Shown here piece after piece: positions 8,435 to 26,328 of a stretch of DNA of 26,449 nt. The stretch lies in the IMG/VR virus record IMGVR_UViG_3300009151_005549, positions 1 to 26,449 of that record. One strand, given 5' to 3'. Under the pieces are notes generated by a model. The model worked only from the letters and a program-made list of their open reading frames with translations, did not search any database and was not told the origin of the DNA. A program made the position numbers and the translations under genes. This DNA is from a virus. Position 1 is the first letter of the stretch; each line of letters starts with the position of its first letter.

Positions 8435-8438
8435 AGTC

Positions 8439-9355: not shown

Positions 9356-9943
9356 ATGAGCGTAGCATTTGTATTGGGCAACGGTCAAAGCCGATCAATT
9401 ATTGATTTGACCAGAATTCGACCTTTGGGACCAATTTATGGTTGCAACGGACTGTACAGGGATTTTGAGCCCGATTGTCTTGTGGCCACAGATAGGCCCA
9501 TTGCAGAACACATACAACGTTCGGGTTATTCTAAAAAAAATAGATTTTATACCCGTAGACCCTTGCCAGATCTAGGAGCACACCAGGTTCCAAAAAAGTA
9601 TCATGGCAACAGTTCGGGCCCTATTGCGTGTGCAATAGCTGCATCCGACGGACACCGACGAATATACCTACTGGGCTACGATATGGCTGGCACAGCAGCC
9701 AGTAAATTCAACAATGTTTATGCAGGAACAGAGTTTTACAAGTCTGCAGATGCTGCCCCTACCTTTACAGGCAACTGGATCAAACAATTATCCACAGTTG
9801 CTAGGGACTTTGCCCGAACGGAATTTGTTCGTGTGTGCGGTACAACCACTGCTGAAATTACCGACTTGAAAAACATAGATAATTTCTCACACATTGATCT
9901 CAAAGCCTTTGTACACAGGATAAACACCGGCGAAAACCTGTAA
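9356..9943 (+). CDS. Rossmann-like protein resembling DUF115/GT42-type proteins
   Basis: 195 residues; the ATG is preceded by GGGAGG at a 7-nt spacing. An N-terminal beta strand and glycine turn (FVLGNGQSR, 5-13) are followed by I-Y-G-C-N-G-L-Y-R-D-F-E-P-D (27-40), A-T-D (44-46), N-S-S-G-P-I-A-C-A-I-A-A (85-96) and R-I-Y-L-L-G-Y-D-M (102-110). This order (GNG-x-S, a C-N turn, an S-G helix, then I-Y-L-x-G-x-D) recalls DUF115/MptE-like proteins and GT42 sialyltransferases such as Campylobacter Cst. The region after the last motif has no obvious equivalent of the Cst catalytic histidine, so enzymatic activity is uncertain. It sits between fibre genes; a nucleotide-sugar or glycan-related role is inference. 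Confidence 0.6.
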   Translation: MSVAFVLGNGQSRSIIDLTRIRPLGPIYGCNGLYRDFEPDCLVATDRPIAEHIQRSGYSKKNRFYTRRPLPDLGAHQVPKKYHGNSSGPIACAIAASDGHRRIYLLGYDMAGTAASKFNNVYAGTEFYKSADAAPTFTGNWIKQLSTVARDFARTEFVRVCGTTTAEITDLKNIDNFSHIDLKAFVHRINTGENL

Positions 9944-9999: not shown

Positions 10000-12900
10000 A
10001 TGACCCAATATGTTATTGACATTGGCGCAGTGCCCGACGACGGGCAGGGCGATCCGTTACGCACAGCGTTTGCATTTACCAACGACAACTTCAATCAGAT
10101 TTTTGAATCTGGACCTGTTGGCTCAAATGTAAAAATTGCCAACAATACCATCACCACCACGGTGATAAACAGCAACCTGATACTGAGTCCTTCGGGTATT
10201 GGTAAAATTCAGGTCAACAACACGCTGCTGCCACGAATTGACAATGTGTATGATCTGGGCAGCTTATCTCAAAGATTCAACACTATCTATGTGGGTTCCG
10301 GCGGGCTAGACATCACAGGCAGCATTGTTGTCAGCGGTAATATCACTGCTGACTATTTCATCGGTAACGGGTCAGCACTCACAGGCATTGTGGCCACCAC
10401 TGGTAGCAGGGTCGAAAACGGCAACAGCAATATCAACATACCTGCAGCAGGTTCCAATATATTTGTCACAGTCAACGGAACTGGCAATATTGTGGTATTT
10501 TCCAATACCGGAGCCTATGTTGCAGGCGAAGTAAGTGCAACTGGCAATATCACGGGTAATTATATCCTGGGCAACGGTGCATTGCTGACAGGTATCAATG
10601 CCAACTACAGCAATGCCAATGTAGCTGCCTACTTGCCCACATACACAGGTAATCTGGTCAGCTTGACAGGTCCGGTCACAACCACTTCTAACGTCACTGG
10701 TGGGAATATAAGAACCAGTGGGCAAATCACAGCCACAGGCAACATCACTGGTGGCAACGTAGACACCAACAGAGTCAATGCTGCAAACATCACTGTTGGT
10801 GGACCTGTCTCTGCAAGTGGTAACGTCACGGGTAATTATATTCTGGGTAACGGTGCGTTACTAACGGGTATCAATGCCAACTACAGCAATGCCAATGTTG
10901 CTGCCTACTTGCCAACCTATACCGGTAACCTGGTCAGTTTAACAGGACCAGTAACAACCACTGCCAATGTCACTGGTGCCAACATTCGCACAAGCGGACA
11001 AATAACCGCCACAGGAAATGTCACAGCAGGTAATGTAGACACTGGCAGAGTCAATGCTGCTACGATTACTGCCAGTGGAAATGTCAGCGGTGCATACTTC
11101 CTTGGTGATGGTAGTCAATTAACAAATTTACCTGCAGGAAATTACAGCAATGCTAATGTTGCTGCATATCTTCCGACCTATACCGGTAACCTAGTTAGTC
11201 TTGCTGGTCCAGTAACAACCACGTCTAATATCACCGGTGCCAACATTCGCACAACAGGGCAAATAACCGCCACAGGCAATATCACCGCAGGCAATGTAGA
11301 TACCAGTAGAGTCAACGCTGCCACGGTCACTGTCAGCGGCCCAGTTAGTGCAAGTGGCAATGTCACTGGTGCATACTTCTTGGGTGACGGTAGTCAGCTA
11401 ACCAATTTACCTGCGGGTAATTACAGCAATGCCAATGTTGCTGCATACCTTCCAACATATACTGGCAATCTAGTCAGCTTAACAGGACCAGTAACAACCA
11501 CAGCCAACATCACTGGCGGCAATTTGTTAACCAGTGGTCAAGCCACAGTCACTGGCAATATCACAGCAGGCAATGTAGACGCCACCAAAGTTAATGCTGT
11601 TACTGTTGCAGCCAGCGGATCGATCAGTGCGGTTGGCAACATCACCGGCAACAATCTAATTGGTGTCACTGTAACAGGAACCACTGTTACTGCCACTGCC
11701 AATGTGGTTGGCGGCAATATCACTACAGCTGGACAAATTTCATCTACAGGAAACATAACTGGTGGTAATCTCAGTGTTCCTGGTGGAACAGTCTCAAGTC
11801 TCACAGTTAGTGCTGCAGGAAATATTCGTGGCGGAAATCTTGTTACACCAGGATTTATCACAGCCACAGGCAACATCACTGGTGGCAACGTAGACACTGG
11901 CAATATTCATGCTGGTAATATAAATGTTGATAGTATTGTAAGTGCCCAAGGCAATGTGTACGGCAACACCTTTGTTGGCAATGGCTTATCGGTCTCTGGA
12001 AATGTTTCAGCAGGCAATATTTCTGTATCTGGAACTTTTGGTGCCACAACTCTCAGCGCATCAGGCAATGTGATTGGTGGAAACTTACTGACCACTGGCA
12101 AAGTTAGTGCGGTCGGCAATGTGTCAGGCAACTATTTTGTTGGTAACGGTGCGTTACTAACAGGCATCACAGTAACAGCTGGATCGTCACTGTTGAATGG
12201 CAATAGTAATGTTGTTGTGGGTGCCAATGGCAATGTCACAGTTGGTGTAAGTGGAACTAGTAATATAGCACAGTTTGCCAACACTGGTGCATATGTCACT
12301 GGTGTCATAAGTGCCACAGGCAACATAGCAGGCAGTTATTTGCTTGGTAACGGTGCGTTGATCACAGGATTGCCAGCAGGATACAGCAATGCTGATGTGG
12401 CAGCTTACCTGCCAACATATTCGGGCAACTTACCAAATTTAACTGGACTGGTATCAACCACAGGCAATGTTAGTGGCAATTACTTTATTGGTAATGGTAG
12501 TTTATTAACCGGTGTAACAGCATCCGGGGTCAATGCCAACGCACTAACGGGCAACACCCTGAGTTCAAATGTATTAAACTCAAGTCTAACATCGGTTGGA
12601 ACTCTAAGCAATCTGAGCGTAACCGGAAACACAAACAGTGGTAATTTATCAACTGGTGGAACAATAAGTGCAACAGGCAACATAACCGGCAATTATATCT
12701 TGGGTAACGGTGCATCGCTAACTGGTGTGATTACCAGTGTGGCCAACATCAACCTTGGAACATCCAACGTTACTGTGGTTAGTTCTGGAGGTAATGTCAC
12801 AGTTGGCATAGGCGGAACAAGCAATGTAGCAGTATTTTCTACCACAGGTGAATATGTTACTGGCCTAATTAGTGCAACAGGTAATATCACTGGCAGCAAC

Positions 12901-15900
12901 TTACTCACTGCTGGATTGATATCCGCAACTGCTAATGTTACTGCTGGTAACATTAACACAGCGGGATTGATATCAGCAACCGGCAATGTCACTGGAAATT
13001 ACTTTATTGGTAACGGTAGTCAACTAACAGGTGTTGCAGCATCTAGTGTAAATGCCAATGCATTGGTAGGCAATACACTAAGTTCAAACGTACTATATTC
13101 AAGTTTAACACAGGTTGGAACATTATCCAGCTTGACTGTAACAGGAAACACAACCAGTGGTAATTTATTAACTGGTGGGCTGATATCAGCAACCGGTAAT
13201 GTTATCGGCGGCAACATTGTTACGTCTGGCTCTGGAGGAAATATCACTGGGGCTAATGTAATTAGTGCCACAACATTTAGTGCTGCTGCTAATATTTTGG
13301 GCGGTAATGTTCTAACCAATGGCTTAATATCAGCAACTGGCAATGCCACCGTTGGTAATTTAAGCACAGCAGGATTGATTACCGCAACTGGTAATATTTC
13401 TGGCAACAATATTTTTGCCACAGGACTTGCAAGTGTCACAGGCAATGTGATTGCTGGCAATGTCAATACTGGTGCTATTAGACCTGTCAGCGGGCCGTTG
13501 ACAATTACCACTGCGTCGGGCAATTTGAATCTGCAACCGGCTGGCAATATTGTGTTGGCCAACACCTATATCAACAGTGTGGCCTATCCAGCACAGGATA
13601 CCGATGCTGCAACAAAATTATATGTTGACAACATGGTGTCAACTGCTATAGCGTACCACACACCTGTATATGCAGCTACCACTACTACCCTGGCCACAAC
13701 CACAGGCGGAACAATCACATATGCTCAGCCCAACGGAGTAGCCAATGGTGTTGGGGCAACACTGACCACCACTGGCTCATTCAATCTAGTTGATACCAGC
13801 AATGTTCAAACACTGGGCACACGTATCCTGGTCAAAGATCAAGCCAATGCGGTACAAAACGGCATTTACACCTGGGCCAATGCCACAGCAATTGTTCGAG
13901 CCACTGATGCAGACGAATATGGTCCAGATAGTTCGCAACAGATAAGTCTAAACGATTATTTCTTTACCAGCACCGGTAATGTCAATCTTGGTGCTGCCTT
14001 CATAGTCAATTCACCGCTGGGCACTATTACTTTTGGCACAAGCAACATTACTTTTGCTCTGTTTAGTCAAACAACTGCCTACACTGCCAATGTTGACGCT
14101 GGACTAAGTCTAACTGGTACTGTATTCTCAGCCAAAGTTGATCTGAATACCACAGCATTTGATGCTGGTGGAAATATCATTGTCAAAGCAGGTGCTAATC
14201 TTACCACACCCAATATTGGTGCTGCCACAGGCACAAGTCTAAGTTTAATAGGCAACATCAACAGTGGAAATGTCAACACCAGCGGCTTGATTTCAGCAAC
14301 TGGTAACATTACAAGTGCTGCCAATGTCACCGGCGGTAACATCCTAACTGGTGGAACAATAAGTGCAACCGGCAACATCACTGCTGGCTATTTTTCTGGC
14401 AACGGTGCTGGACTTTCTAATGTCATTGCGTCCGGCGGTGTGGGCAATACCATCACACTAGGCACACCCACAGACGGTAGCCTAACAGCCAATGTTGCTT
14501 ATCCTGGATGGACCACAGGTACTTTTGTTACAGATGGCCTAGACGATCTGAATCAAGTGTCATTGAATATTGCTAACAGTACCTATGTGGGCAATGCCTA
14601 TATCACTGCCAACGTTTATTCTGGACCCAGCCCGTTGTCAGTAGCATTCACTGGTCGTTATATTGGTAATCCCAATAGTTTCTTGTGGCAGTTTGGGGAT
14701 GGCACAGCCAACGCTACCACAGCCAATGCGGTTCATACCTTTAGCAATGCACTAGGCGGAACTTTTACTGTGAACTTCACCGCCTTCAATACCAATGGAA
14801 CCTACAATGGCAATGCAGCCAATGGCGCCAAAGGATCAACTAGTACAGCATCAATTTCAAACATTGTGTTGTACACACCAAGTCCAATACCGTCATTTAC
14901 TCTGAGCAGCAACAGTTTCAACACAGGCAACATTATTACCATAACCAATACCAGCCAGTATGTGGTCTGGTATGATCTGAGTTTTGGAGATGGTACTGCT
15001 AACTTTACTGCTGGTCCAGGATTAGGCAACACATCGTTTACCAATGTAACTCATCAGTACAATTCTGTGTCGTCCAACGCAGACAGCTTGTACAGTGCAG
15101 TTCTAAGTGGCACCAGCAACACCGCAGGTCCGGGCAACGTTACTGTGGTATCATCGGCCAGCAACGTAAAAGTTTATGCTCCTCAAACCGGCAATGTGTT
15201 TGTCACTGCCAATCGGGCCAACGTGATCAACGGCCTAGGTGGTATAAGTTTCCGCAACGACTCAAATGGCACGCCAGGCAACACAGCCAGTTTTGGCGCA
15301 CAACAATTGTACAACTTCAACTACGGTGACGGCAATATCAGCAATGTCAATGTGGGCACAGGTATTGCAGGTAACCCAGCAGCAGCCAATGTCACAAACA
15401 CATTTGTGTTGAGTGCTGCCAATCAAGCTGGCAACGTTTATCAACAGTTCACAGCCAATTTGTTCCTGTACACTGGTTACAGCAGCAGCCCAGCCCGGAG
15501 TGGTAACATCACAATCACAATAGAACCTCAAGTGCGTGGCAACTACATTGGAACCACAGCCAACGTTGTAACCGATGCCACTGCCAACACAGGCAATGCC
15601 AGAGTGGGATATCTCTATACTGATTACAATACTTCCAACCGATCAACATTCACATTCCAGAACACCAGTCAGAACAGTAATCTGGCCAACTGGTCCTGGG
15701 GTGATAGCACATTCAGCAATGGTGTGTCAAATGTGGGCAACACACTGCACACCTATAACAGCACTGGTGCGTTCACAGTGGCACTCACGGCCAACGGCAC
15801 ACCCAACGGTATAACCAGTACTGCTCAAAGCAACACAATCTCCAATGTTGGTTATATTTTTATTGCTGCCAATCCTACAGCACCTACTAATCTTAGTGGA

Positions 15901-17529
15901 TTCTCCAACTTGGCCATAGCTAACACCAGCGAAGGGACCAGTCCGTTACTGGCAGCTGGAGCAACAGATGCTTCAGGCGGCAATATTGTGGCCAATGGCA
16001 CCAGTGTCACACGTTTTGCAACAACCACACTGATTGCTACCGCTGCCAATATTATCAATGCCAACACAGGAATAAGTTCAACTCAGTTTACCGCCAACTT
16101 GTTTGCCTATGTCAACAATACTGCGGCTGGCAACGTGGCATTTAGCAATGTGAGCAACACAGTTGGAACTTCGGGTGCATTGGTAATCACTCAAGATCGA
16201 GACTTGCACGTGGCCAACGCTGCTGTACCAAGCTACTTCTACAAGGTGTTCAATGCCAATGTTGCTTGTGCTCTCAGCAGCCTGAGCACTGGTTACAACA
16301 ACTACAAATTGGTAGATTCCGTAACAGGCAACACCAACTATGTGGGCTTTGTCAAAGACAATTTGAATTCAGCACCTAGCTTGATCACTGCCAGTACTGC
16401 TCTGGTCGAAGCCACAGCAGGCACATACCGATATATTTCGGGTATTCCTTATTACAACACAGGATCACCTACAATTACCATTGCCACACTGGCGGTGGCA
16501 AACTTGTCCGGACAAACATTTAGAAGTGCAGATCCGTTTGTGTTGGCCAGTGGAACAGTGATCGAAGGATCTGGAGCCATATTATCTGCAACACAGACCA
16601 AAGCACTTGGCACAATCAACAATGCTGGCAACAGCTTCCTGACAGGAGCCAACCTAAATGCCAATGTGGGTGTTGGTTCATCTTACACACTTGGCAACTT
16701 GACTGCCAACTTAACAGGAGCCAACAACAGTGTGGCCACTTTGCAGGCCAACATATTCAACGTGGTTGGAACCAGTGCCACAGTGCAGTTGCCAGCAAAT
16801 ATACAGATGTACGCAGGTGCAAACTCTGGCATAAACGAACAGGCAATTACTTGTACACCCACTGCCAACACACAAGCAGCCATACGAATAGTGATGAGCA
16901 CAGCCGGCAACACTCCGGTGTTTTCTAATTCAACCAATTTTTACACTGCCAACGCCTGGTCCGGAGCACAAACCATTGCTGGAACACCAGAAGCTGTGGT
17001 TCGATACGGTGTGCTCAAACAGTATGCAGTTGATCTCAGCACAGGATATTTGCCAGTAGGACCAAACTTGTCAGTCACTGGCGGACGCACCAGCACACAG
17101 TACTTTACTTTTGCATTTGCAAGACCGAGTCTTGCAAACTTTGATATTAGATTAACCACAACCACAGGTGTTGCAGGCGTATGGCTGGCTGCACCTGGAA
17201 CCACAATAGACAAAAGCGGATTCTCATCGCCCACACCGGGGTTCCCAGGACCTACCAGTACCATCAACGGATGGTTAGAAGCATCTACTCAGTATGCTGG
17301 ATCAGGAGTTCCTGGTGCAGCCACTGGCACAGGCGGCAACGGGTCAAATGGTTGTGCCTTGACCGGGGCAGATGTAATTCCATTAAATACAGCAATCTCT
17401 AACGTAGCTTACACAATGACCCTAGGATCTCAAAACGCCGCCAACAGCACTGGTACCAATATTCTAATTAGAATTGCGTTAGCGGCCGGACAATCTATCA
17501 CAGATCTGCAGATAGGAGTGGTGTCTTAA
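10000..17529 (+). CDS. Giant fibre/adhesin protein with TGN-type repeats and four PKD-like domains
   Basis: 2,509 residues. The N-terminus (MTQYVIDIGAVPDDGQGDPL) and a YDLGSLSQRFNTIY element begin a fibre-type protein. Residues of about 110-1145 are glycine/asparagine/threonine-rich repeats built around SATGNITGGN and G-N-Y-I-L-G-N-G. Residues of about 1145-1440 hold a fibre module with DAATKLYVDN (1202) and RILVKDQANAVQNG (about 1275), shared with the gene at 19756. Residues of about 1530-1960 carry four PKD-like signatures: WQFGDG (1563), SFGDG (1661), NYGDG (1774) and WSWGDS (1898). The C-terminal 500 residues are beta-rich and unrecognised, ending in D-L-Q-I-G-V-V-S. No signal peptide, as expected for a virion protein. 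It ends in a TAATG overlap with the next gene. I infer a very long tail fibre or baseplate adhesin; the exact position in the virion is unknown. Confidence 0.83.
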   Translation: MTQYVIDIGAVPDDGQGDPLRTAFAFTNDNFNQIFESGPVGSNVKIANNTITTTVINSNLILSPSGIGKIQVNNTLLPRIDNVYDLGSLSQRFNTIYVGSGGLDITGSIVVSGNITADYFIGNGSALTGIVATTGSRVENGNSNINIPAAGSNIFVTVNGTGNIVVFSNTGAYVAGEVSATGNITGNYILGNGALLTGINANYSNANVAAYLPTYTGNLVSLTGPVTTTSNVTGGNIRTSGQITATGNITGGNVDTNRVNAANITVGGPVSASGNVTGNYILGNGALLTGINANYSNANVAAYLPTYTGNLVSLTGPVTTTANVTGANIRTSGQITATGNVTAGNVDTGRVNAATITASGNVSGAYFLGDGSQLTNLPAGNYSNANVAAYLPTYTGNLVSLAGPVTTTSNITGANIRTTGQITATGNITAGNVDTSRVNAATVTVSGPVSASGNVTGAYFLGDGSQLTNLPAGNYSNANVAAYLPTYTGNLVSLTGPVTTTANITGGNLLTSGQATVTGNITAGNVDATKVNAVTVAASGSISAVGNITGNNLIGVTVTGTTVTATANVVGGNITTAGQISSTGNITGGNLSVPGGTVSSLTVSAAGNIRGGNLVTPGFITATGNITGGNVDTGNIHAGNINVDSIVSAQGNVYGNTFVGNGLSVSGNVSAGNISVSGTFGATTLSASGNVIGGNLLTTGKVSAVGNVSGNYFVGNGALLTGITVTAGSSLLNGNSNVVVGANGNVTVGVSGTSNIAQFANTGAYVTGVISATGNIAGSYLLGNGALITGLPAGYSNADVAAYLPTYSGNLPNLTGLVSTTGNVSGNYFIGNGSLLTGVTASGVNANALTGNTLSSNVLNSSLTSVGTLSNLSVTGNTNSGNLSTGGTISATGNITGNYILGNGASLTGVITSVANINLGTSNVTVVSSGGNVTVGIGGTSNVAVFSTTGEYVTGLISATGNITGSNLLTAGLISATANVTAGNINTAGLISATGNVTGNYFIGNGSQLTGVAASSVNANALVGNTLSSNVLYSSLTQVGTLSSLTVTGNTTSGNLLTGGLISATGNVIGGNIVTSGSGGNITGANVISATTFSAAANILGGNVLTNGLISATGNATVGNLSTAGLITATGNISGNNIFATGLASVTGNVIAGNVNTGAIRPVSGPLTITTASGNLNLQPAGNIVLANTYINSVAYPAQDTDAATKLYVDNMVSTAIAYHTPVYAATTTTLATTTGGTITYAQPNGVANGVGATLTTTGSFNLVDTSNVQTLGTRILVKDQANAVQNGIYTWANATAIVRATDADEYGPDSSQQISLNDYFFTSTGNVNLGAAFIVNSPLGTITFGTSNITFALFSQTTAYTANVDAGLSLTGTVFSAKVDLNTTAFDAGGNIIVKAGANLTTPNIGAATGTSLSLIGNINSGNVNTSGLISATGNITSAANVTGGNILTGGTISATGNITAGYFSGNGAGLSNVIASGGVGNTITLGTPTDGSLTANVAYPGWTTGTFVTDGLDDLNQVSLNIANSTYVGNAYITANVYSGPSPLSVAFTGRYIGNPNSFLWQFGDGTANATTANAVHTFSNALGGTFTVNFTAFNTNGTYNGNAANGAKGSTSTASISNIVLYTPSPIPSFTLSSNSFNTGNIITITNTSQYVVWYDLSFGDGTANFTAGPGLGNTSFTNVTHQYNSVSSNADSLYSAVLSGTSNTAGPGNVTVVSSASNVKVYAPQTGNVFVTANRANVINGLGGISFRNDSNGTPGNTASFGAQQLYNFNYGDGNISNVNVGTGIAGNPAAANVTNTFVLSAANQAGNVYQQFTANLFLYTGYSSSPARSGNITITIEPQVRGNYIGTTANVVTDATANTGNARVGYLYTDYNTSNRSTFTFQNTSQNSNLANWSWGDSTFSNGVSNVGNTLHTYNSTGAFTVALTANGTPNGITSTAQSNTISNVGYIFIAANPTAPTNLSGFSNLAIANTSEGTSPLLAAGATDASGGNIVANGTSVTRFATTTLIATAANIINANTGISSTQFTANLFAYVNNTAAGNVAFSNVSNTVGTSGALVITQDRDLHVANAAVPSYFYKVFNANVACALSSLSTGYNNYKLVDSVTGNTNYVGFVKDNLNSAPSLITASTALVEATAGTYRYISGIPYYNTGSPTITIATLAVANLSGQTFRSADPFVLASGTVIEGSGAILSATQTKALGTINNAGNSFLTGANLNANVGVGSSYTLGNLTANLTGANNSVATLQANIFNVVGTSATVQLPANIQMYAGANSGINEQAITCTPTANTQAAIRIVMSTAGNTPVFSNSTNFYTANAWSGAQTIAGTPEAVVRYGVLKQYAVDLSTGYLPVGPNLSVTGGRTSTQYFTFAFARPSLANFDIRLTTTTGVAGVWLAAPGTTIDKSGFSSPTPGFPGPTSTINGWLEASTQYAGSGVPGAATGTGGNGSNGCALTGADVIPLNTAISNVAYTMTLGSQNAANSTGTNILIRIALAAGQSITDLQIGVVS
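10530..11510 (+). repeat. Four tandem 87-93-residue modules in the 2,509-residue fibre
   Basis: Each module carries Y-S-N-A-N-V-A-A-Y-L-P-T-Y-T-G-N-L-V-S-L. The Tyr codons start at 10606, 10882, 11143 and 11422, giving spacings of 276, 261 and 279 bp. A fifth, diverged copy (Y-S-N-A-D-V-A-A-Y-L-P) starts at 12382. The first two modules share the G-N-Y-I-L-G-N-G lead-in and the next two share G-A-Y-F-L-G-D-G, so pairs have duplicated or swapped parts. Confidence 0.85.
12478..13200 (+). repeat. Duplicated NANAL-TLSSNVL fibre module
   Basis: Residues with V-N-A-N-A-L-T-G-N-T-L-S-S-N-V-L (from about 12530) recur as V-N-A-N-A-L-V-G-N-T-L-S-S-N-V-L (from about 13050). Each is followed by S-S-L-T-x-V-G-T-L-S and V-T-G-N-T. 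The copies lie about 515 bp apart. The S-N-V-L-x-S-S-L-T-x-V-G-T-L pattern is common in phage and other surface fibres. Confidence 0.75.
13432..14330 (+). repeat. Fibre module shared with the 2,190-residue fibre (copy 1)
   Basis: The segment from V-T-G-N-V-I-A-G-N-V-N-T through DAATKLYVDN, G-V-G-A-T-L-T-T-T-G-S-F-N-L, RILVKDQANAVQNG and T-P-N-I-G-A-A-T-G-T-S closely matches 22171-23060 in protein, with clear but lower nucleotide similarity. This is a recognisable phage fibre domain (DAATK-YVD ... ILVKDQ ... NGIY). Confidence 0.85.
14600..15860 (+). other. PKD-like domain cluster within the giant fibre
   Basis: Four immunoglobulin-fold PKD signatures, each an aromatic-x-F/Y/W-G-D-[GS] turn, are encoded near 14686, 14980, 15319 and 15691. 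At least three are followed 15-40 residues later by a H-x-F/Y strand (V-H-T-F, V-T-H-Q-Y, L-H-T-Y). PKD domains act as spacers or glycan-binding modules in many surface proteins. Confidence 0.72.
17384..17391 (+). promoter_or_regulatory. Possible internal late-promoter motif upstream of the gene at 17529
   Basis: TAAATACA occurs inside the 3' end of the giant gene, about 140 nt before the next start. It is the only intragenic copy I found by eye on this strand. It may be chance. Confidence 0.2.
17514..17518 (+). promoter_or_regulatory. Shine-Dalgarno AGGAG for the gene at 17529
   Basis: AGGAG lies within the last codons of the giant fibre gene, 10 nt before an ATG that overlaps its stop as TAATG. 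This supports both the chosen start and coupled translation. Confidence 0.7.
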
Positions 17530-19019
17530 TGGCTGCTTCGTTTAACGAATCACAAAAGATTGATTATCTTTGGAAAAAGGTTGGTTACGGTGTAACCAAA
17601 ACAGCCGAGCCAGCCTCCAAAGAAGCCTTTAACGAAAGTATTGCCAGTCCACTGTTGTATCGCGGCGACCTTATCTGGACACAGAGTGGAAACATACCTG
17701 CCTCACCGCCTGCCAATACCACGCCACTGGTGCAGGTATACAAAGATGGCGGCGGAGCCGGATACAGTCCCACAGTACAATGTACAGAAGATCTCACAGC
17801 ACCAGACAATCAAACTTGGAAAACAAACTCAATCAACTGGATTCCCACACAGTTTGGTGACAATTATCTGGTGCAGGTTTATGCGGCTGCACCTGGTATT
17901 ACAAATGCTCAAACAGTAGGTACCAAGTTGTTTGGTGCAGGATCGGGTGCAGACGACACCTGGTTCTTTGATTATCAATCAGGTGTACTAAACTTTAACG
18001 GCGCAACTATACCAGCAGCCATTGGTACCGGAACAGCCAACACAATCTATGTTGTGGGTTATAGATATGTGGGTGAATTTGGTGTAGACACTACATTCAT
18101 CAGCAACGGTACCAGCAATGTAAGCATTGCCACTGCTAACGCCAACATCACCATGAGTGTGAATGGCACAGGTAATGTGGTTGTGATCGCCAACACAGGT
18201 GCATATGTTTCTGGAGCAGTAAGCGTATCAGGCAACATCACCGGCGGCAACATACTGTCCGACAACTATTATTATGCCAATGGTACACCAGTACCACCGG
18301 GTGTGATATACACTGCCAACACAGCACCTCCGGTATCACCTGCGCCCAAGGTAACTGACCAGTGGTATGATACTGCCAACGATGTGCTGTATGAATATCT
18401 TGATGATGGCACAAGCACCTACTGGATTGACACAACCAGTCCTGCATTTGCAGGTGGAGTAGTTGCTAATGTGGCAATTTCTGGCACCCTGGTACCGGTT
18501 GGCAATGTCACCTATGACATTGGTACTAGCACAGTATATTTCCGTAACACGTATACTCAGAATCTTTATACCAACAACAGATTGCCTGCGTTCAACATGC
18601 CACTGGGTGCAGTGGTACAAACAGTGATGAGTTCAAGCCTTGGAGGCAGTATCACAAACAGCACCAGCTATGCAGACATCAGCTATGCCAACGTGACTAT
18701 TACCCCATCAAGTGCAACCAGCAAGATTTTTGTTGTGGCCACGGGTACTGCTAGTTTTACATCACTGGCAGGACAAGACGTCACAGCTGACACTCAGTTG
18801 GTTAGAAGCCCTAGCACCAGTTTGCAAATACAAACATGCGGAACAACAGTGTCAGGCGGTGGTATTGGAGTTACGGGTTCTGTATCTTACAGTTATGTAG
18901 ACAGCCCGGGAACCACATCGCCGGTGACCTACAAATTACAACAAAAAGTGTCCAATGCTAGTAGTACACTTACCAGCACAAATATTTGGTTAATAGCCAT
19001 GGAGATTACCTCATCATGA
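17529..19019 (+). CDS. Tail-fibre protein (MAASFNESQKIDYLWKKVGYG type)
   Basis: 496 residues. Residues of about 1-186 form a conserved-looking head. It has MAASFNESQKIDYLWKKVGY, K-E-A-F-N-E-S-I-A-S-P-L-L, the duplicated-looking Q-T-W-K-T-N-S-I-N-W-I-P-T-Q-F-G segment and W-F-F-D-Y-Q-S-G-V-L-N-F-N-G. I associate this head with fibre proteins of T4-like cyanophages and their relatives. A short TGN-repeat stalk follows, then residues of about 232-345, a Y-Y-Y-A-N-G to S-P-A-F-A-G-G module shared with the gene at 19756, and a different beta-rich tip (about 350-496: MPLGAVVQTVMSSS ... SATSKIFVVATG ... IWLIAMEI). That tip pattern occurs in many phage receptor-binding ends. The gene is coupled upstream by TAATG and downstream by ATGA. 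A structural fibre role is likely; receptor unknown. Confidence 0.82.
   Translation: MAASFNESQKIDYLWKKVGYGVTKTAEPASKEAFNESIASPLLYRGDLIWTQSGNIPASPPANTTPLVQVYKDGGGAGYSPTVQCTEDLTAPDNQTWKTNSINWIPTQFGDNYLVQVYAAAPGITNAQTVGTKLFGAGSGADDTWFFDYQSGVLNFNGATIPAAIGTGTANTIYVVGYRYVGEFGVDTTFISNGTSNVSIATANANITMSVNGTGNVVVIANTGAYVSGAVSVSGNITGGNILSDNYYYANGTPVPPGVIYTANTAPPVSPAPKVTDQWYDTANDVLYEYLDDGTSTYWIDTTSPAFAGGVVANVAISGTLVPVGNVTYDIGTSTVYFRNTYTQNLYTNNRLPAFNMPLGAVVQTVMSSSLGGSITNSTSYADISYANVTITPSSATSKIFVVATGTASFTSLAGQDVTADTQLVRSPSTSLQIQTCGTTVSGGGIGVTGSVSYSYVDSPGTTSPVTYKLQQKVSNASSTLTSTNIWLIAMEITSS
18224..18570 (+). repeat. YYYANG-SPAFAGG module, copy 1
   Basis: This matches 24675-25010 in the 2,190-residue fibre. 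Shared elements include N-Y-Y-Y-A-N-G, W-Y-(D/N)-T, D-V-L-Y-E-Y-L-x-D-G-T-S, D-T-T-S-P-A-F-A-G-G-V-V-A-N-V-A-I-S-G and Y-D-I-G. Nucleotide identity is high around the SPAFAGG segment, pointing to exchange between fibre genes. Confidence 0.85.
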
Positions 19020-19687
19020 TAACACTGTTTCATGCTATACAGAGTCTGGTGCCCGGGGCAGAAGTCAGTGTGGGCATGTATGACAAAACAATAATCTGGC
19101 ACAAGCCCGAAACGGCTCCAGTGACCACGGCACAAATACTCGAAGAGCAACGGCGACTGCAACAGGCCTATGACTGGAACATGTATCAACGTAATCGTGC
19201 TAGAGAGTATCCTAGTGTGCAAGAACAACTGGATGCACTGTATCATGCCGGTGTTTTTCCAGCAGCCATGGCAGCCAGAATACGAGCAGTAAAAGAAAAG
19301 TATCCACGTCATCCAATGGGCGATTCACCAACAGCAAATCCACAAACGGTTGAAAATCCAGTGGCAAAAATGACAGTTGAGCAATGGCTAGCAGAAGAAA
19401 CAAAAATGACTGATCAGGAATGGCTGGCCCAACAACAATCGGCCAGCCCAATGACTAGAGAACAGTGGTTGGCAAGCCAACAACAGATCAAGATCACTCA
19501 TGCACCAACATTGTTGCGAGATTCTCGCCCTACCATGACAGCAGAAGAATGGCTGGCTCAGCAAACAGCTCAGATAAATGAGCCAACAATGACTAGAGAA
19601 CAGTGGTTTGAACAACAAAAAACCGCTCTGCAACCGCGTCAAATGACCCGAGAACAGTGGCTGGCAGAGCAAGCAAACATAAAATAA
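19016..19687 (+). CDS. Fibre accessory/assembly-type protein with six MTxEQWL motifs
   Basis: I chose the ATG at 19016, which overlaps the previous stop as ATGA and follows a GGAGA; the in-frame TTG at 18986 has no support. The product has 223 residues. Residues of about 40-100 (LEEQRRLQQAYDWNMYQRNR, then A-R-E-Y-P-S-V-Q-E-Q-L-D-A-L-Y-H-A-G and R-A-V-K-E-K-Y-P) form a mostly helical element. I recognise it from small proteins encoded beside tail fibres in T4-like marine phages. Residues 119-220 carry six motifs of the form M-T-x-[ED]-[QE]-W-[LF], separated by Gln/Ala-rich or Pro-containing linkers. Position between two fibre genes suggests a fibre-assembly chaperone or adaptor; this is inference. 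No enzyme motif, signal peptide or membrane segment is present. Confidence 0.72.
   Translation: MITLFHAIQSLVPGAEVSVGMYDKTIIWHKPETAPVTTAQILEEQRRLQQAYDWNMYQRNRAREYPSVQEQLDALYHAGVFPAAMAARIRAVKEKYPRHPMGDSPTANPQTVENPVAKMTVEQWLAEETKMTDQEWLAQQQSASPMTREQWLASQQQIKITHAPTLLRDSRPTMTAEEWLAQQTAQINEPTMTREQWFEQQKTALQPRQMTREQWLAEQANIK
19370..19672 (+). repeat. Six in-frame MTxEQWL motif repeats
   Basis: The Met codons start at 19370, 19406, 19451, 19535, 19589 and 19643. Cores are MTVEQWLAEE, MTDQEWLAQQ, MTREQWLASQ, MTAEEWLAQQ, MTREQWFEQQ and MTREQWLAEQ. The 20 bases starting at 19451 and at 19589 are identical, so copying was fairly recent, while linkers vary in length and sequence. Confidence 0.9.
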
Positions 19688-19688
19688 T

Positions 19689-19719
19689 ACAGACTGTAAT
19701 TTCTAAATCTGTTTTTTTT
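19689..19719 (+). terminator. Possible weak terminator running into the late promoter
   Basis: ACAGA (19689-19693) can pair with TCTGT (19708-19712), a 5-bp stem with a 14-nt loop, followed by eight T residues (19712-19719). The stem is weak. The last T is also the first base of the TATAAATA promoter. Confidence 0.35.
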
Positions 19720-19726
19720 ATAAATA
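19719..19726 (+). promoter_or_regulatory. T4-type late promoter TATAAATA
   Basis: A perfect match to the T4 late-promoter consensus TATAAATA lies in the 68-bp gap, 29 nt before the ATG at 19756 and on the correct strand. In T4 such sites are read by host RNA polymerase with a phage late sigma factor and sliding clamp. It implies late, replication-linked expression of the downstream fibre genes. Confidence 0.78.
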
Positions 19727-19755: not shown

Positions 19756-22700
19756 ATGGCATTTCCAACAACACCCACAAACGGTCAAGTAACCGTAGTT
19801 AATCAGGTATCATACCAGTATTCCAGCGCAACCAACAGCTGGACTAGAATTTTATCCACAGCAAATGTTATTACTGCCAATACCATTGCAGTAAATGGCA
19901 ACTTGACTGTGGGTGTGGACATTGTTGCCAGCGGCAACATCACAGGTAATTATTACTTTGGTAACGGTAGTCAATTAACTGGGGTTACAGCGTCAAGTGC
20001 AGGTTTCCCAATCACAGCAGGCAACAGCAATATTGCAGCAGCAGCCAATAGCAATATTGCAATCACGGTTACAGGAACTCCTAATGTTGCTGTGTTTGCC
20101 CCAACTGGTGAATATGTTACAGGTGTTGTTAGTGCAAGCGGTACAGTAACAGGTGGCAATTTGGCCACTGGCGGAACAGCAAGTGCAGCAGGCACCGTAA
20201 CAGGTGGCAATTTGGCCACAGGTGGAACAGCGTCGGCTACAGGTACAGTAACAGGTGGCAATTTGGCCACAGGTGGAACAGCTTCGGCTACAGGTACAGT
20301 AACAGGTGGCAATTTGGCCACAGGCGGAACAGCTTCGGCTGCTGGCACAATAACCGGTGGAAACATTGCCACAGGCGGTACTGCAAGTGCTACCGGCAAT
20401 GTCACAGGTGGCAACCTAGTAACCAGCGGAGTAACACAAACAGGCAATTTTAGTATTACTGGCAATGTAATTGGTAATTTATTGCCCTCTGCTAATGCAA
20501 CATACAGTCTTGGCGGCCCAGGACAACTTTGGAAAAACTTGTATCTAAGCGGTAACACACTGGTTCTTGGTGATCAATCACTCAGCTCAAATGCCACTGC
20601 AATTTTTACAGCCAATAATTTTAGTTCCAACAATCTAGCTGCAACTAATGCGGTAGCAGCAGGAACCACTGTTAGTGCAGTGGGCAACGTAATTGGTGGC
20701 AACGTAACAACAGTAGGCCAAGTAAGTGCAACTGGTACCATAACAGGTGGCAATATTGCCACAGGTGGTACCGCAAGTGCTACAGGCAACATCACAGGTG
20801 GCAATGTACTCACAGGTGGGTTAATCAGTGCCACTGGAACAATAACTGGTGTTGACACAATAACAGGTGGAAATATTGCCACAGGTGGCACAGCATCAGC
20901 AACAGGCAATATCACTGGCGGCAATGTACTCACAGGTGGACTGATCAGTGCTACATCAACCATCACAAGTGCTGCCACAATAACAGGTGGCAACTTGGCC
21001 ACAGGTGGCACTGCAAGTGCAACCGGAACAATAACCGGCGGCAATTTGGCCACAGGCGGAACTGCGTCAGCAGCAGGAACTGTAACAGGTGGAAACATTG
21101 CTACAGGCGGTACCGCAAGTGCCACAGGCAATATCACAGGTGGCAATGTCTTAACAGCCGGTCAAGTAAGTGCAACCGGCAACGTAACTGGTAACTATAT
21201 CCTGGGTAACGGTGCGTCCTTGACCGGAGTCATCACAAGTGTGGCCAACATCAACAATGGCACATCAAATGTGACTATTGCTGCTGCCAACGCCAACGTT
21301 ACAGTCAGTGTTAATGGCACATCAAATGTTGCGGTATTTGCTACAACAGGTGAATATGTTACAGGTGTTGTGAGTGCAAGCGGTACAGTAACTGGTGGAA
21401 ACATTGCCACAGGCGGTACATCAAGTGCAACAGGTACAGTAACCGGCGGCAATTTGCTAACTGGTGGGTTGATCAGTGCCACTGGAACAATAACTGGTGT
21501 TGACACAATAACAGGTGGCAACTTGGCCACAGGCGGTACTACGTCAGCAACAGGTAACATAACTGGTGGTAATTTGTTAACAGGTGGCCTAATCAGTGCC
21601 ACATCAACTATCACAAGTGCTGCTACCGTAACTGGTGGCAACTTGGCCACTGGCGGAACAGCTTCGGCTGCAGGAACAATAACAGGTGGAAATATTGCCA
21701 CAGGTGGTACCGCAAGTGCCACAGGCAATGTCACAGGTGGCAATGTACTCACAGGTGGGTTAATCAGTGCTACTGGCAATATTACTGGTGGTAATATTGC
21801 CACTACTGGCACATTTGGCGCAGCAAGTCTGAGTGCATCAGGTAATGTCACTGGTGGTAATTTGCTAACAGGTGGTTTGATAAGTGCTACTTCAACTATC
21901 ACAAGTGCTGCCACAATAACAGGTGGCAATTTGGCCACAGGCGGCACAGCGTCAGCGACAGGAACAATTACTGGTGGAAACATTGCCACAGGCGGCACAG
22001 CGTCAGCGACAGGAACAATTACTGGTGGAAACATTGCCACAGGCGGTACTGCAAGTGCAGCAGGTAACATAACTGGTGGTAATTTGTTGACAGGTGGACT
22101 GATCAGTTCAACTGGCAGCATCACAACAACATCTAACATTTCAGGCGGCAACTTGTTGACCTCTGGACTGGTATCAGTAACTGGCAATGTTATTGCTGGC
22201 AATGTTAATACCAGCACTATCAGACCCACAAGTGGTGCATTGACAATCAGCACAGCATCAGGTAATTTGAACTTGAATCCTGCTGGCAATATTGTATTGT
22301 CTGCAAATACCTGGATCAACAATGTAAATTATCCGGCTCAAGCATCTGATGCAGCCACAAAAGAATATGTTGACAATCTTGCTACAACAGCTATTGCTTA
22401 TCACCAACCAGTTTTTGCAGCAACAACTACTACCCTGGCTACAACCACAGGTGGTACAGTAACTTACAACAATGGTACGTCTGGGGTTGGTGCCACATTG
22501 ACCACAACTGGCTCATTCAACTTGATCGATACTGCCAATGTTCAAACAGTTGGCACACGTATTCTGGTCAAAGATCAGGCCAATGCTGTGCAAAACGGTG
22601 TGTATGTTTACACCAGTAGTACAGTAATTACTCGTTCAACAGACGCTGACACATACGGGCCAGACAGTACAACTGATTTGAGTATCAATGATTATTTCTT

Positions 22701-25700
22701 CACTACCAACGGTACTGTTAATGCCGGCACAGCCTTTATTGTTAGTGCTCCAACAGGTGTAATTACATTTGGTACGTCAAATATTACTTTTAGTATATTC
22801 AGTAGCAGCCAAGTTTACTCAGCCAATTCTGCAGCCGGTCTAAGCCTCGACGGCACAGTATTCTCAGCCAAAGTTGACAACAATACCACAGCATTTGACG
22901 GCACAGGCAATATCATTGTCAAGGCCAGTGCTAACCTGACCACACCCAATATTGGTGCTGCAACAGGTACCAGCGTAAGTTTGACAGGCAACGTTAACGG
23001 CGGCAATGTGGTCACAGGTGGCCTGATTAGTGCTGCTGGCAACATTACCGGTGGTAATATTTCCACTGCTGGCACATTTGGTGCAGCAAGTCTAAGTGCA
23101 TCAGGTAATGTCACTGGTGGTAATTTGCTAACAGGTGGCCTAATTAGCGCAACCAGCACAGTAACTGGTTCTAGCTTGTTGGGATCGGTTGTCAGTGCAA
23201 GCGGTAACGTTACCGGCGGCAATGTACTCACAGGCGGATTAATTAGTGCTACGTCAACAATCACAAGTGCTGCCACAATAACCGGTGGCAACTTGGCCAC
23301 TGGCGGAACAGCTAGTGCAGCAGGTACTGTAACAGGTGGCAATTTGGCCACAGGTGGAACTGCAAGTGCTACTGGTAATATCACTGGTGGCAATGTCTTA
23401 ACAGGTGGACTGATCAGTTCAACTGGCACTATCACAAGTGCAAACAATATTACTGGTGGTAATTTGTTAACAGGTGGCCTAATCAGTGCCACATCAACCA
23501 TCACCAGTGCTGCCACAATAACCGGTGGCAACTTGGCCACAGGTGGAACAGCTAGTGTCACTGGTAACATCACAGGCGGTAACGTACTCACAGGTGGAAT
23601 AGTTTCGGCAACTGGTAACGCTACTTTTGGAAACATTTCAACTTCTGGATCAGGCGGCAATATTTCTGGCGCCAATGTAATTTCAAGTACAACACTCAGT
23701 GCCACTGCAAATGTAATAGGTGGCAATGTCTTAACAGCCGGCCAAGTAAGTGCTACTGGTAATGTTACTGGTAACTATATTCTAGGTAATGGTGCGTCAC
23801 TAACTGGTGTTATCACAAGTGTGGCCAATAACAACAATGGCACATCTAACGTAACTATTGCTGCTGCCAATGCCAATGTTACAGTCAGTGTCAATGGTAC
23901 ATCAAATGTTGCTGTGTTTGCCACAACTGGCGAGTATATCACCGGCGTGTTAAGTGCAAGCGGAACAGTAACAGGTGGAAACATTGCCACAGGTGGCACC
24001 GCAAGTGCCACTGGCAACATCACAGGCGGCAATGTACTCACAGGTGGATTGATAAGTGCTACTGGAACAATAACCGGCGTTAACACAATAACCGGTGGAA
24101 ATATTGCCACAGGCGGAACTGCATCAGCAACTGGCAATATCACAGGTGGTAACATACTCACAGGTGGGCTGATCAGTGCTACATCAACAATTTCCGGTGG
24201 AAATATTGCCACAGGCGGTACTTCAAGTGCTACAGGAAATATTACAGGTGGCAATGTACTCACAGGTGGCTTGATAAGTGCTACTTCAACCATCACAAGT
24301 TCAGCTAATGTTACCGGTGGAAATATTGCCACAGGTGGTACCGCAAGTGCAGCAGGTACTGTAACTGGCGGTAATTTAGCCACTGGCGGAACAGCAAGTG
24401 CCACAGGCAATATCACAGGTGGTAATGTACTCACAGGTGGCTTGATAAGTGCTACTTCAACCATCACAAGTTCTGCCACTGTAACCGGTGGAAATATTGC
24501 CACAGGTGGCACCGCAAGTGCCACAGGCAACATCACTGGTGGTAATTTGTTGACAGGTGGACTGATCAGTTCAACAGGAACAATCACTGGTTCAAGTATA
24601 CTGGGATCAGTTGTGTCTGTAAGTGGTAACATCACTGGTGGTAACATCAGCACAACAGGATTGATCACTACCACTGGCAACATTGCTGGTGGCAACATCC
24701 TGTCCAACAACTACTACTATGCCAATGGTCAGGCCATTGTGTTTGGAGTAAACTTCACAGCAAGTACCACTCCACCTTCGGGTGCAGGCAACGGATGGCA
24801 GTGGTACAACACATCCACAGACGTGTTGTACGAATATCTCAGTGACGGCACAAGCCAGTACTGGGTTGACACAACCAGTCCTGCATTTGCAGGCGGAGTA
24901 GTTGCCAACGTGGCAATCTCGGGCAGCATGCTGGTAGCTACTAGCAATGTGTATGACATTGGTGCCAGCGGACAAACATTCCGAAATGTGTATGCCACAA
25001 ACTATTATGGTAACGGTGCTTCGTTGAGCGGCATTATTACCAGCGTGAGCAACATCAACAACGGCACAACCAACATGACTGTGGTCAGCTCAGGCGGCAA
25101 TATTGCAGCGTCAGTTGGCGGAACATCAAACGTGATGGTTATCACATCAGGTGCGGTGGCAATCACTGGCGATTTGAGTGTGACTGGTAACGCCACCCTC
25201 AGCGGCAACATTCTGGGCGATAGAATCCAGAACGGAACCACACAGATTGATATCCAGACCATAAATGGCAATGCCAACATCACTGTTGGTGGTGTCAGCA
25301 ATGTGGCTGTGTTCAGCACAGATCGAGTGACTTTGGGCGGTAACTTGTTGCCAAGTGCCAATGTCACATATGACCTGGGTACAACAACACAGCGTTGGAA
25401 AGACTTATGGTTGAGCAACAGCACAATTTATCTGGGCAACAGTCAGATCAGTGCCAATGCAACAGCGGTTGTGATTACCAATCCTGCAGGCGGAACCACA
25501 GTGTTGCAAGGGGCAACTCCAAGTATCACAGGCTCAGTTGTCAGTGCAAGTGGCAATGTCACCGGCGGTAATTTGTTGACAGGTGGTTTGATTAGTGCAA
25601 CTGGCAACATAAGTGGCGGCAATATCTTAGGCGGGGCCAACGTCAATGCAACAACTCACACAGGTTCAACAGTTAGTGTAACTGGCAATATTACCGGTGG

Positions 25701-26328
25701 CAACATCTTGACAGGTGGACTGATTAGTGCAACTGGCAATGTAAATGTAGGCAATTTGATCAATGCAGGTCTTACTAGTGTAACTGGCAATATTACCGGT
25801 GGCAACTTAACCACAGCAGGCATACTTACTGTGAACTCAGGTGCAGCAGCCACAGCCATTGTGAATGGTGCAGGTAACGCAGTGGGCAACATTGGTAGTT
25901 CCGGCACATACTTCAATCGACTGTTTGCTCAAGCAACCACAGCACTCTACGCCGACTTGGCAGAGATGTATGTGAGTGACGCTGAATATGATGCAGGAAC
26001 TGTGGTAGATTTTGACGGCACTCAAGAAATCACAATAAGTAACACTGATTCTAGCAAACGAGTTGCTGGCGTGATATCAACCAATCCTGCACACCTGATG
26101 AATTCGGGCATTGTTGGTGATATCACATTGCCAGTGGCACTGATTGGTAGAGTTCCAGTCAAGGTAACAGGTGTTGTACGCAAAGGTGATCTAATGGTGT
26201 CAGCAGGAAATGGTAGAGCTCGTGCAGTAACAATTGCAAGTCCAAAAGTAGGTACCATAATTGGCAAGGCACTGGAAAACTTTGCAGGCGGTGAAGGCAT
26301 TATTGAACTTGTGATTGGCAAACATTAA
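19756..26328 (+). CDS. Giant repetitive tail-fibre protein with 17-residue repeats and a DLAEMY C-terminal domain
   Basis: 2,190 residues with a late promoter and Shine-Dalgarno upstream. The N-terminus (MAFPTTPTNGQVTVVNQVSYQY ... SWTRIL) is a fibre-attachment type shared with the next gene. Most of the body is a 17-residue unit of the form ATGTVTGGNLATGGTAS or ATGNITGGNLLTGGLIS. It is interrupted by GNYILGNG modules, a DAATKEYVDN/RILVKDQ domain (residues of about 806-1100), two Y-S/D-L-G ... W-K-x-L-(Y/W)-L elements (near 20510 and 25370) and a YYYANG-SPAFAGG module. The last 124 residues (2067-2190) begin D-L-A-E-M-Y and end V-I-G-K-H, with R-V-A-G-V-I-S-T-N-P and G-R-V-P-V-K-V. This compact C-terminal domain is common on phage fibres and its layout recalls autoprocessing Peptidase_G2-type ends, although cleavage is not shown. 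Likely a trimeric beta-solenoid fibre. Confidence 0.86.
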   Translation: MAFPTTPTNGQVTVVNQVSYQYSSATNSWTRILSTANVITANTIAVNGNLTVGVDIVASGNITGNYYFGNGSQLTGVTASSAGFPITAGNSNIAAAANSNIAITVTGTPNVAVFAPTGEYVTGVVSASGTVTGGNLATGGTASAAGTVTGGNLATGGTASATGTVTGGNLATGGTASATGTVTGGNLATGGTASAAGTITGGNIATGGTASATGNVTGGNLVTSGVTQTGNFSITGNVIGNLLPSANATYSLGGPGQLWKNLYLSGNTLVLGDQSLSSNATAIFTANNFSSNNLAATNAVAAGTTVSAVGNVIGGNVTTVGQVSATGTITGGNIATGGTASATGNITGGNVLTGGLISATGTITGVDTITGGNIATGGTASATGNITGGNVLTGGLISATSTITSAATITGGNLATGGTASATGTITGGNLATGGTASAAGTVTGGNIATGGTASATGNITGGNVLTAGQVSATGNVTGNYILGNGASLTGVITSVANINNGTSNVTIAAANANVTVSVNGTSNVAVFATTGEYVTGVVSASGTVTGGNIATGGTSSATGTVTGGNLLTGGLISATGTITGVDTITGGNLATGGTTSATGNITGGNLLTGGLISATSTITSAATVTGGNLATGGTASAAGTITGGNIATGGTASATGNVTGGNVLTGGLISATGNITGGNIATTGTFGAASLSASGNVTGGNLLTGGLISATSTITSAATITGGNLATGGTASATGTITGGNIATGGTASATGTITGGNIATGGTASAAGNITGGNLLTGGLISSTGSITTTSNISGGNLLTSGLVSVTGNVIAGNVNTSTIRPTSGALTISTASGNLNLNPAGNIVLSANTWINNVNYPAQASDAATKEYVDNLATTAIAYHQPVFAATTTTLATTTGGTVTYNNGTSGVGATLTTTGSFNLIDTANVQTVGTRILVKDQANAVQNGVYVYTSSTVITRSTDADTYGPDSTTDLSINDYFFTTNGTVNAGTAFIVSAPTGVITFGTSNITFSIFSSSQVYSANSAAGLSLDGTVFSAKVDNNTTAFDGTGNIIVKASANLTTPNIGAATGTSVSLTGNVNGGNVVTGGLISAAGNITGGNISTAGTFGAASLSASGNVTGGNLLTGGLISATSTVTGSSLLGSVVSASGNVTGGNVLTGGLISATSTITSAATITGGNLATGGTASAAGTVTGGNLATGGTASATGNITGGNVLTGGLISSTGTITSANNITGGNLLTGGLISATSTITSAATITGGNLATGGTASVTGNITGGNVLTGGIVSATGNATFGNISTSGSGGNISGANVISSTTLSATANVIGGNVLTAGQVSATGNVTGNYILGNGASLTGVITSVANNNNGTSNVTIAAANANVTVSVNGTSNVAVFATTGEYITGVLSASGTVTGGNIATGGTASATGNITGGNVLTGGLISATGTITGVNTITGGNIATGGTASATGNITGGNILTGGLISATSTISGGNIATGGTSSATGNITGGNVLTGGLISATSTITSSANVTGGNIATGGTASAAGTVTGGNLATGGTASATGNITGGNVLTGGLISATSTITSSATVTGGNIATGGTASATGNITGGNLLTGGLISSTGTITGSSILGSVVSVSGNITGGNISTTGLITTTGNIAGGNILSNNYYYANGQAIVFGVNFTASTTPPSGAGNGWQWYNTSTDVLYEYLSDGTSQYWVDTTSPAFAGGVVANVAISGSMLVATSNVYDIGASGQTFRNVYATNYYGNGASLSGIITSVSNINNGTTNMTVVSSGGNIAASVGGTSNVMVITSGAVAITGDLSVTGNATLSGNILGDRIQNGTTQIDIQTINGNANITVGGVSNVAVFSTDRVTLGGNLLPSANVTYDLGTTTQRWKDLWLSNSTIYLGNSQISANATAVVITNPAGGTTVLQGATPSITGSVVSASGNVTGGNLLTGGLISATGNISGGNILGGANVNATTHTGSTVSVTGNITGGNILTGGLISATGNVNVGNLINAGLTSVTGNITGGNLTTAGILTVNSGAAATAIVNGAGNAVGNIGSSGTYFNRLFAQATTALYADLAEMYVSDAEYDAGTVVDFDGTQEITISNTDSSKRVAGVISTNPAHLMNSGIVGDITLPVALIGRVPVKVTGVVRKGDLMVSAGNGRARAVTIASPKVGTIIGKALENFAGGEGIIELVIGKH
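20140..20420 (+). repeat. 51-bp (17-residue) tandem repeats, first array
   Basis: About five to six consecutive 51-bp units encode variations of TGGNLATGGTASATGTV. Neighbouring units differ by only a few bases, such as a CA-to-TC or T-to-C change, so the array is young. Confidence 0.9.
20725..21190 (+). repeat. 51-bp repeats, second array
   Basis: Units alternate between a NIATGGTASATG type and a NVLTGGLISATG type, with occasional spacers (G-V-D-T-I and S-A-A-T-I). This higher-order alternation recurs in later arrays. Confidence 0.85.
21172..21400 (+). repeat. GNYILGNG-NGTSNV module, copy 1
   Basis: This approximately 230-bp segment encodes Q-V-S-A-T-G-N-V-T-G-N-Y-I-L-G-N-G-A-S, then N-G-T-S-N-V-T-I-A-A-A-N-A-N-V and T-T-G-E-Y-V-T-G-V. 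It matches 23746-23980 almost residue for residue. Confidence 0.88.
21375..22180 (+). repeat. 51-bp repeats, third array
   Basis: The longest run of 17-residue units. It mixes the ATGG and LTGG types and contains a T-F-G-A-A-S-L-S-A-S-G variant unit near 21805 that recurs near 23070. Confidence 0.87.
21934..22046 (+). repeat. Exact 51-bp tandem duplication
   Basis: Units starting at 21934 and 21985 are identical over all 51 bases, and the next 11 bases from 22036 also match. This is the cleanest sign of recent slippage or unequal recombination in the window. Confidence 0.92.
22171..23060 (+). repeat. Fibre module shared with the 2,509-residue fibre (copy 2)
   Basis: This is the counterpart of 13432-14330. 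The order of elements (V-N-T-x-x-I-R-P, S-G-N-L-N-L-x-P-A-G-N-I-V-L, DAATKEYVDN, RILVKDQANAVQNG, T-P-N-I-G-A-A-T-G-T-S) is the same in both, but the flanks differ. Confidence 0.85.
23010..23760 (+). repeat. 51-bp repeats, fourth array
   Basis: Includes the recurring S-A-T-S-T-I-T-S-A-A-T-I-T-G-G-N-L-A-T-G-G super-unit twice (near 23245 and 23485) and a G-S-G-G-N-I-S-G-A-N-V-I-S variant near 23650. That variant has a relative in the 2,509-residue fibre near 13230. Confidence 0.83.
23746..23980 (+). repeat. GNYILGNG-NGTSNV module, copy 2
   Basis: Near-identical protein to 21172-21400, with I-N-N-N changed to N-N-N-N and V-T-G-V-V to I-T-G-V-L. The nucleotide differences are mostly at third codon positions. 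Confidence 0.88.
23955..24680 (+). repeat. 51-bp repeats, fifth array
   Basis: Alternating ATGG and LTGG units with S-A-T-S-T-I spacers. It ends in a G-S-S-I-L-G-S-V-V-S-V-S-G segment like that near 23170. Confidence 0.85.
24675..25010 (+). repeat. YYYANG-SPAFAGG module, copy 2
   Basis: Counterpart of 18224-18570 in the 496-residue fibre gene. It is followed by F-R-N-V-Y and a G-N-G-A-S-L-S-G-I-I element. Confidence 0.85.
25540..25830 (+). repeat. Short terminal array of 17-residue-type repeats
   Basis: Several less regular ITGGNxLTGGLISATGN units lead into the unique C-terminal domain. Confidence 0.75.

Follow-up and report, generated by a model that had tools for sequence, protein, structure and literature searches.

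The closest mechanistic analogue of the protein described here is gp25 of the myocyanophage Pam3, a protein of 162 aa which forms a 3:3 complex with gp24, a fibre carrying a TNF-like domain (PMC9608196). The variable N-terminal domain of gp25, a beta-sandwich, binds the fibre tip and the conserved helical domain trimerises; mass spectrometry of virions did not detect the protein (PMC9608196). The protein studied here resembles gp25 in being the product of a small gene beside a fibre gene, in its TNF-like client tip, which is predicted here for the fibre called F2, and in the combination of a variable N-half with a conserved helical C-half, the comparison being one of layout; it differs by a motif array, none being described for gp25 in the available portion of the published account. 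A small gene directly behind the fibre gene is also the arrangement of Tfa and gp38 in Mu, lambda and T4, for which we propose the same role here, but the new protein has no Pfam Tfa-type match and no structural match to these proteins among those listed. Several proteins with the PF16778 (Phage_tail_APC) domain share its N-half (residues 1–52) and sit at −4 behind the same kind of tip; they differ by having PF16778 in place of the C-half with the signature YQRxRxxEYPSIxxQLDxLYH, and have no array. The marine-phage members of PHROG 9114 (HTVC010P, ORF40 of P-SSP7) are homologous over residues 1–98 and occur in the same order behind a tip-type fibre, but stop at about residue 98 (KYPK), without the array. 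A weak, isolated match to PF09636 (XkdW; E = 0.003) was seen in one of 54 family members, the protein studied having none. A literature search covering few subscription journals found no tail-fibre chaperone with an array of short motifs.

The window, that is, the whole stretch of 26,449 nucleotides of viral DNA that was analysed, contains the following features relevant to the comparison:

10000–17529, + strand: F1, the upstream long fibre with repeats, which some relatives have joined to the F2 tip in one fibre
17529–19019, + strand: fibre gene F2 (496 aa), the proposed client, whose N-end matches PHROG 9417
18570–19016, + strand: predicted TNF/C1q-like lectin-fold tip of F2, its last 149 residues (AlphaFold2 mean pLDDT 89, pTM 0.84)
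19016–19687, + strand: gene of the protein studied (ORF), 223 aa, proposed fibre-tip chaperone with motif array
19016–19171, + strand: N-half, residues 1–52, common to PF16778 proteins (HMM; AlphaFold2 pLDDT above 90); proposed client-binding part
19178–19309, + strand: C-half, residues 55–98, helical, with the YQRxRxxEYPSIxxQLDxLYH signature; replaced by PF16778 in swapped homologues
19756–26328, + strand: F3, the downstream long fibre with repeats, the number of which does not track motif number

Linkage to a predicted TNF-like tip and exchange of half-domains

The open reading frame at 19016–19687 is intact, with an ATG at 19016 and a TAA stop at 19685–19687 (223 aa). Its start overlaps the stop of F2 by the sequence ATGA (−4 nt), the two genes lying in different frames. 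Analysis of the best 80 N-domain matches, near-duplicates included, which correspond to 78 loci, reveals that a fibre-like ORF ends at most 20 nt from the N-domain start in 76 of them. The fibre ORF overlaps the N-domain gene in 59 of these 76 cases, with a gap of −4 in 41 and of −1 in 18, and the same C-terminal tip signature ends 74 of the 76 upstream ORFs. The conserved partner is this TNF-like C-terminal tip, which is also found upstream of motif-free homologues. The assignment of the C-terminal domain of F2 to a TNF-like lectin fold is a prediction from its AlphaFold2 model, which matches PLTL (9ib9) with a Foldseek E-value of 4e-8 and a VIA-align Z-score of 15.4 (2.0 Å over 129 residues); other structural matches of the model are BC2L-C, Pgp3, C1q domains and a short-fibre domain of cyanophage A-1(L). 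The tip family profile moreover matches the solved chain 9efk_AE, named orf22, with an E-value of 3e-27. This orf22 is a protein of 658 aa, present as 18 chains in one entry, with the tip domain at its C-end; no paper on PDB 9efk was found in the literature search.

The N-domain matches PHROG 9114, a family of unassigned function, over residues 1–98 (positions 1–101 of the 103 of the profile, E = 5.4e-19), and the same profile is matched by all 54 aligned family members. Standalone relatives of 96–117 aa, free of the array, are found in HTVC010P, P-SSP7 and S-CAM8, and most of the invariant N-domain columns fall in the C-half (residues 55–98). Searches of Pfam, of PDB sequences and of PDB folds with the full-length protein identified no informative relative, and no N-domain chain was found among the PDB chains; PF16778 and the Tfa-type Pfam families have no match in the window protein or the 54 aligned members, nor is a Pfam chaperone family reached by the N-domain sequence. 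Weak Pfam matches of the window protein, such as WD40_4, fell below the cut-off. Comparison of the N-domain model with solved structures (Foldseek, VIA-align) gave no good match, and no Tfa/gp25-type chain was among the matches listed. In BFVD mostly unnamed phage proteins were matched; an ACG-2014j entry annotated as 'phage tail assembly chaperone-like domain-containing protein' was rejected as too weak (E = 0.077).

A named chaperone domain is encountered in the homologues in which the C-half is exchanged. In Synechococcus phage S-B05 the gene at the equivalent place (L225, 3390–3713) encodes a PF16778 Phage_tail_APC protein (E = 8e-16). A profile of residues 1–52 matched 17 ORFs in the loci fetched with this protein, and PF16778 lies behind the shared N-half in all eight of the 17 that were checked (E-values of 1e-13 to 1e-16), several of the swapped ORFs starting at −4 relative to a fibre gene with this type of tip. 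The profile of residues 55–98 had no match among the ORFs of the PF16778 set. Behind a single type of fibre tip, the same N-half thus occurs with either of two C-halves. Among the sequence evidence, this domain swap speaks most strongly for a role of the PHROG 9114 protein as a chaperone of fibre assembly. Together with the tip-linked synteny, the joining of the N-half to PF16778 makes the protein a likely chaperone of the TNF-like fibre tip, a reading to which we assign a probability of about 0.75. PHROG 9114, so far without an assigned function, thereby gains a testable role through the TNF-like tip and the fusion to a named chaperone domain.

The C-terminal motif array

The array occupies residues 119–219, C-terminal to the folded domain of about 98 residues (residues 1–98):

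19121–19150, + strand: VTTAQILEEQ, residues 36–45, start of the long helix of the N-domain; closest echo of the array motif outside the array in the scanned fibre-cassette regions (PSSM scans)
19310–19369, + strand: flexible linker, residues 99–118 (AlphaFold2 pLDDT 53–56)
19370–19399, + strand: motif 1, MTVEQWLAEE, from residue 119
19406–19435, + strand: motif 2, MTDQEWLAQQ, from residue 131
19451–19480, + strand: motif 3, MTREQWLASQ, from residue 146
19535–19564, + strand: motif 4, MTAEEWLAQQ, from residue 174
19589–19618, + strand: motif 5, MTREQWFEQQ, from residue 192
19643–19672, + strand: motif 6, MTREQWLAEQ, from residue 210

A preliminary description of this DNA had reported six Trp-centred motifs in the gene, joined by flexible linkers of variable length, and had suggested that the motif number may differ between phages. 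Coordinates and count are correct; the fourth position of the pattern had to be widened, as copy 2 has Q there, so that the six copies read MTx[EDQ][QE]W[LF]. The motif-to-motif spacings of 12, 15, 28, 18 and 18 residues agree with linkers of variable length, and in the AlphaFold2 model the motifs form separate helices on flexible linkers. This model, calculated for a single chain from an alignment of 52 sequences, is confident for residues 1–98 (pLDDT about 87–96 by block), which are followed by a low-confidence linker and six predicted helices, one per motif (residues 121–129, 133–142, 148–156, 176–187, 194–204 and 212–221), with an overall pTM of 0.46. The motif is presumably a classical helix N-cap, in which Thr would be the capping residue, Met and Trp would form a hydrophobic staple, and N3 is taken by Glu/Gln; the array is likely to be a multivalent helical docking module.

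Shuffling the 125-residue tail 100,000 times gave one motif in 25 cases and two motifs in none. Pairwise DNA identity between the copies is limited to 18–25 of 30 nt, with many synonymous as well as non-synonymous differences, so that the copies are old, are maintained at the protein level and did not arise by recent slippage. Among ten six-motif orthologues pN/pS is 0.122 for the motifs, 0.136 for the folded N-domain and 0.584 for the linkers, indicating that selection keeps the motifs rather than the linkers.

About twenty contigs in IMG/VR carry the array, several of them of 94–200 kb. Copy number indeed varies, with one motif in L215, two in L136, three in L217, six in most proteins and nine in L015 and L027, a natural series (1, 2, 3, 6, 9) with which it can be asked how motif number affects the work of a fibre chaperone. 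In the N-domain tree the array-bearing proteins constitute one clade (support 99/97), within which the one- and two-motif forms are sister to the remaining array proteins and the two nine-motif forms group together; the latter look as if a block of about three motifs had been duplicated within the array. Near the array gene of L218, genes match PHROGs of the major head protein, the portal and the head maturation protease, which we read as a T4-type head module, the array being known from phages with such genes. We regard the array as a clade-specific addition to the chaperone in one group of large phages, and as dispensable for the basic job, because most homologues are without it. The motif pattern was not found outside the array gene in related contigs of 178 and 200 kb, and bacterial genomes scanned for a double motif yielded unrelated proteins only, with no homologous array.

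When the fibre-cassette regions were scanned with the motif PSSM, the sole close echo outside the array lay within the N-domain, at residues 36–45 (VTxEQIxxEQ). These residues score 10.1 in the close relative L034, which is identical to the window at these residues, and 15.7 in the single-motif L042, a score of at least 10 being reached by 7 of 295,009 other sequence windows from the fetched loci; the significance, calculated post hoc, is p ~0.002 after correction for about 90 domain windows. In L041 and in many homologues without motifs the echo is weak or absent, and this likeness in sequence is to be taken as a lead only. The strongest extra-family motif match among the 295,009 windows is the beginning, MIMAMTPEEWLATQESQPLDPESWMAAQEAS, of a protein encoded on an unrelated contig (L024, 2278–3684, − strand).

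Proposed mechanism and alternatives

We infer a chaperone activity, a trimeric state and translational coupling. The chaperone would be made by coupling of its translation to that of F2 at the ATGA overlap; residues 1–52 would bind the tip of F2 as client, and the helical residues 38–98 would oligomerise, probably to a trimer, and bring three fibre chains into register as in Pam3 gp25. On its flexible linker, each motif would form a self-capping amphipathic helix, with Met as the staple, Thr as the N-cap, then Glu/Gln, and with Trp and Leu exposed. The motifs may thus offer extra, exchangeable contacts of low affinity that raise avidity, and the array would keep fibre chains or tips close to the folding site while these are still unfolded or partly folded. 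Binding of the motifs to the client fibre is the least certain step, and we put forward only tentatively, at somewhat under even odds, that the array targets this fibre. The joint reading, an F2-tip chaperone whose array gives extra fibre-holding contacts, appears evenly balanced, its last step being loose.

The preliminary description had suggested that the array could hold several fibre chains or repeats, or join fibres, and that motif number be compared with fibre repeat number. Were the motifs to dock on the tandem repeats of F1 and F3, one per repeat or chain, copy number should follow the repeats; in keeping with this, all phages in which the array is seen have long repeat fibres, and the motif-free homologues lie mostly behind short fibre ORFs of about 160–350 aa. 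Two fibre layouts occur, one with separate F1 (2274–2696 aa) and F2 (positions 10000–19019 of the window, compared with L213, L215, L218 and L136) and one with a single fused fibre of 982–1681 aa that has the start of F1 and the TNF-like tip of F2. The one-motif L215 has an upstream fibre of 1063 aa with 10 repeats and an F3 with 30 repeats, fibres as long as those of the six-motif relatives, in which the upstream fibre measures 982–997 aa (7–9 repeats) or is short (~496 aa) and F3 has 18–47 repeats, whereas the nine-motif forms have an F2 of 565–710 aa with few repeats. The suggested comparison of motif counts with repeat counts in the fibres showed no tracking, no correlation with fibre length or repeat number being seen across the array relatives, and the genetic linkage of the gene is to the tip domain. 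L215 in fact comes close to a homologue lacking motifs beside equally long fibres, a case that had been named as speaking against the original proposal, and docking on the repeats is very unlikely. What stands of that proposal is the link to fibres and, as the most likely function, that of a chaperone (synteny, overlap, PF16778 swap); the matching of motifs to repeats is not supported. T-even gp38 is a fibre-tip protein present on the virion. Persistence of the present protein in the virion, with the N-domain capping the tip and the array acting as an adhesive or linker tail to the host surface or to other fibres, would fit the shifts of motif copy number between relatives, as in surface-contact parts, and some fibre chaperones (Mu, Ur-lambda) do remain in mature phages (PMC9608196). 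The strong purifying selection on the motifs is unlike that of fast-changing receptor contacts, however; Pam3 gp25 is absent from virions, and by sequence the tip domain was found among PDB chains but the N-domain was not. A virion part thus seems quite unlikely; in the one paper searched for it, no virion proteomics of P-SSP7 ORF40 was found.

Recruitment by the motifs of a factor from the host, for example a general chaperone or a translation factor, to the site of fibre assembly would agree with the occurrence of the pattern nowhere else in the phage contigs, as no second phage copy hints at a phage partner, but the bacterial genome scan matched unrelated proteins only, and we regard such recruitment as highly unlikely. 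A neutral tandem expansion of the C-terminal tail could account for the changes in copy number and for the apparent internal duplication of the nine-motif forms; it is extremely improbable given that the pN/pS of the motifs (0.12) equals that of the folded domain and that of the linkers is 0.58. The echo at residues 36–45, being the best non-array PSSM match in the fibre-cassette regions and part of the same protein, raises the idea that the motifs self-associate or bind their own N-domain in place of this helix start, which would give an autoinhibited or higher-order chaperone. The echo was recognised post hoc, may reflect convergence on a good helix N-cap and becomes weak or is lost in L041 and in many homologues that have no motifs, and the AlphaFold2 model (pTM 0.46) has no confident packing of the array, so that self-binding is rather improbable. 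Returning to the tip chaperone with its client-holding tail, the same echo would be compatible with an origin of this multivalent tail by repetition of the chaperone's own helix start, with replacement of Ile by Trp, the outcome being a phage-encoded, ATP-free fibre-tip holdase with one to nine copies of the motif; we consider this scenario unlikely.

Further genes and signals in the window

A partial ORF at 2–3139 (+ strand) contains many tandem repeats of the AVAIGxxAGxxxQG type and matches a tail spike PHROG. Just upstream of F3, at 19719–19726 (+ strand), lies TATAAATA, the core of a T4-type late promoter, found once in the window against 0.6 copies expected by chance and kept in position only in close relatives. 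Four genes on the opposite strand (3850–8498, − strand) lie within the fibre cluster and encode a Methyltransf_24 protein, a 584-aa ATP-grasp/RimK-like protein, a 308-aa protein without Pfam match and a protein with TPR and Glyco_transf_9 domains, which suggests that functions for modifying surface sugars or peptides accompany the fibres. The 195-aa protein encoded at 9356–9943 (+ strand) resembles the phage alpha-2,3-sialyltransferase family (PHROG 4603, E = 1e-6) and is found at the same place in most related cassettes.
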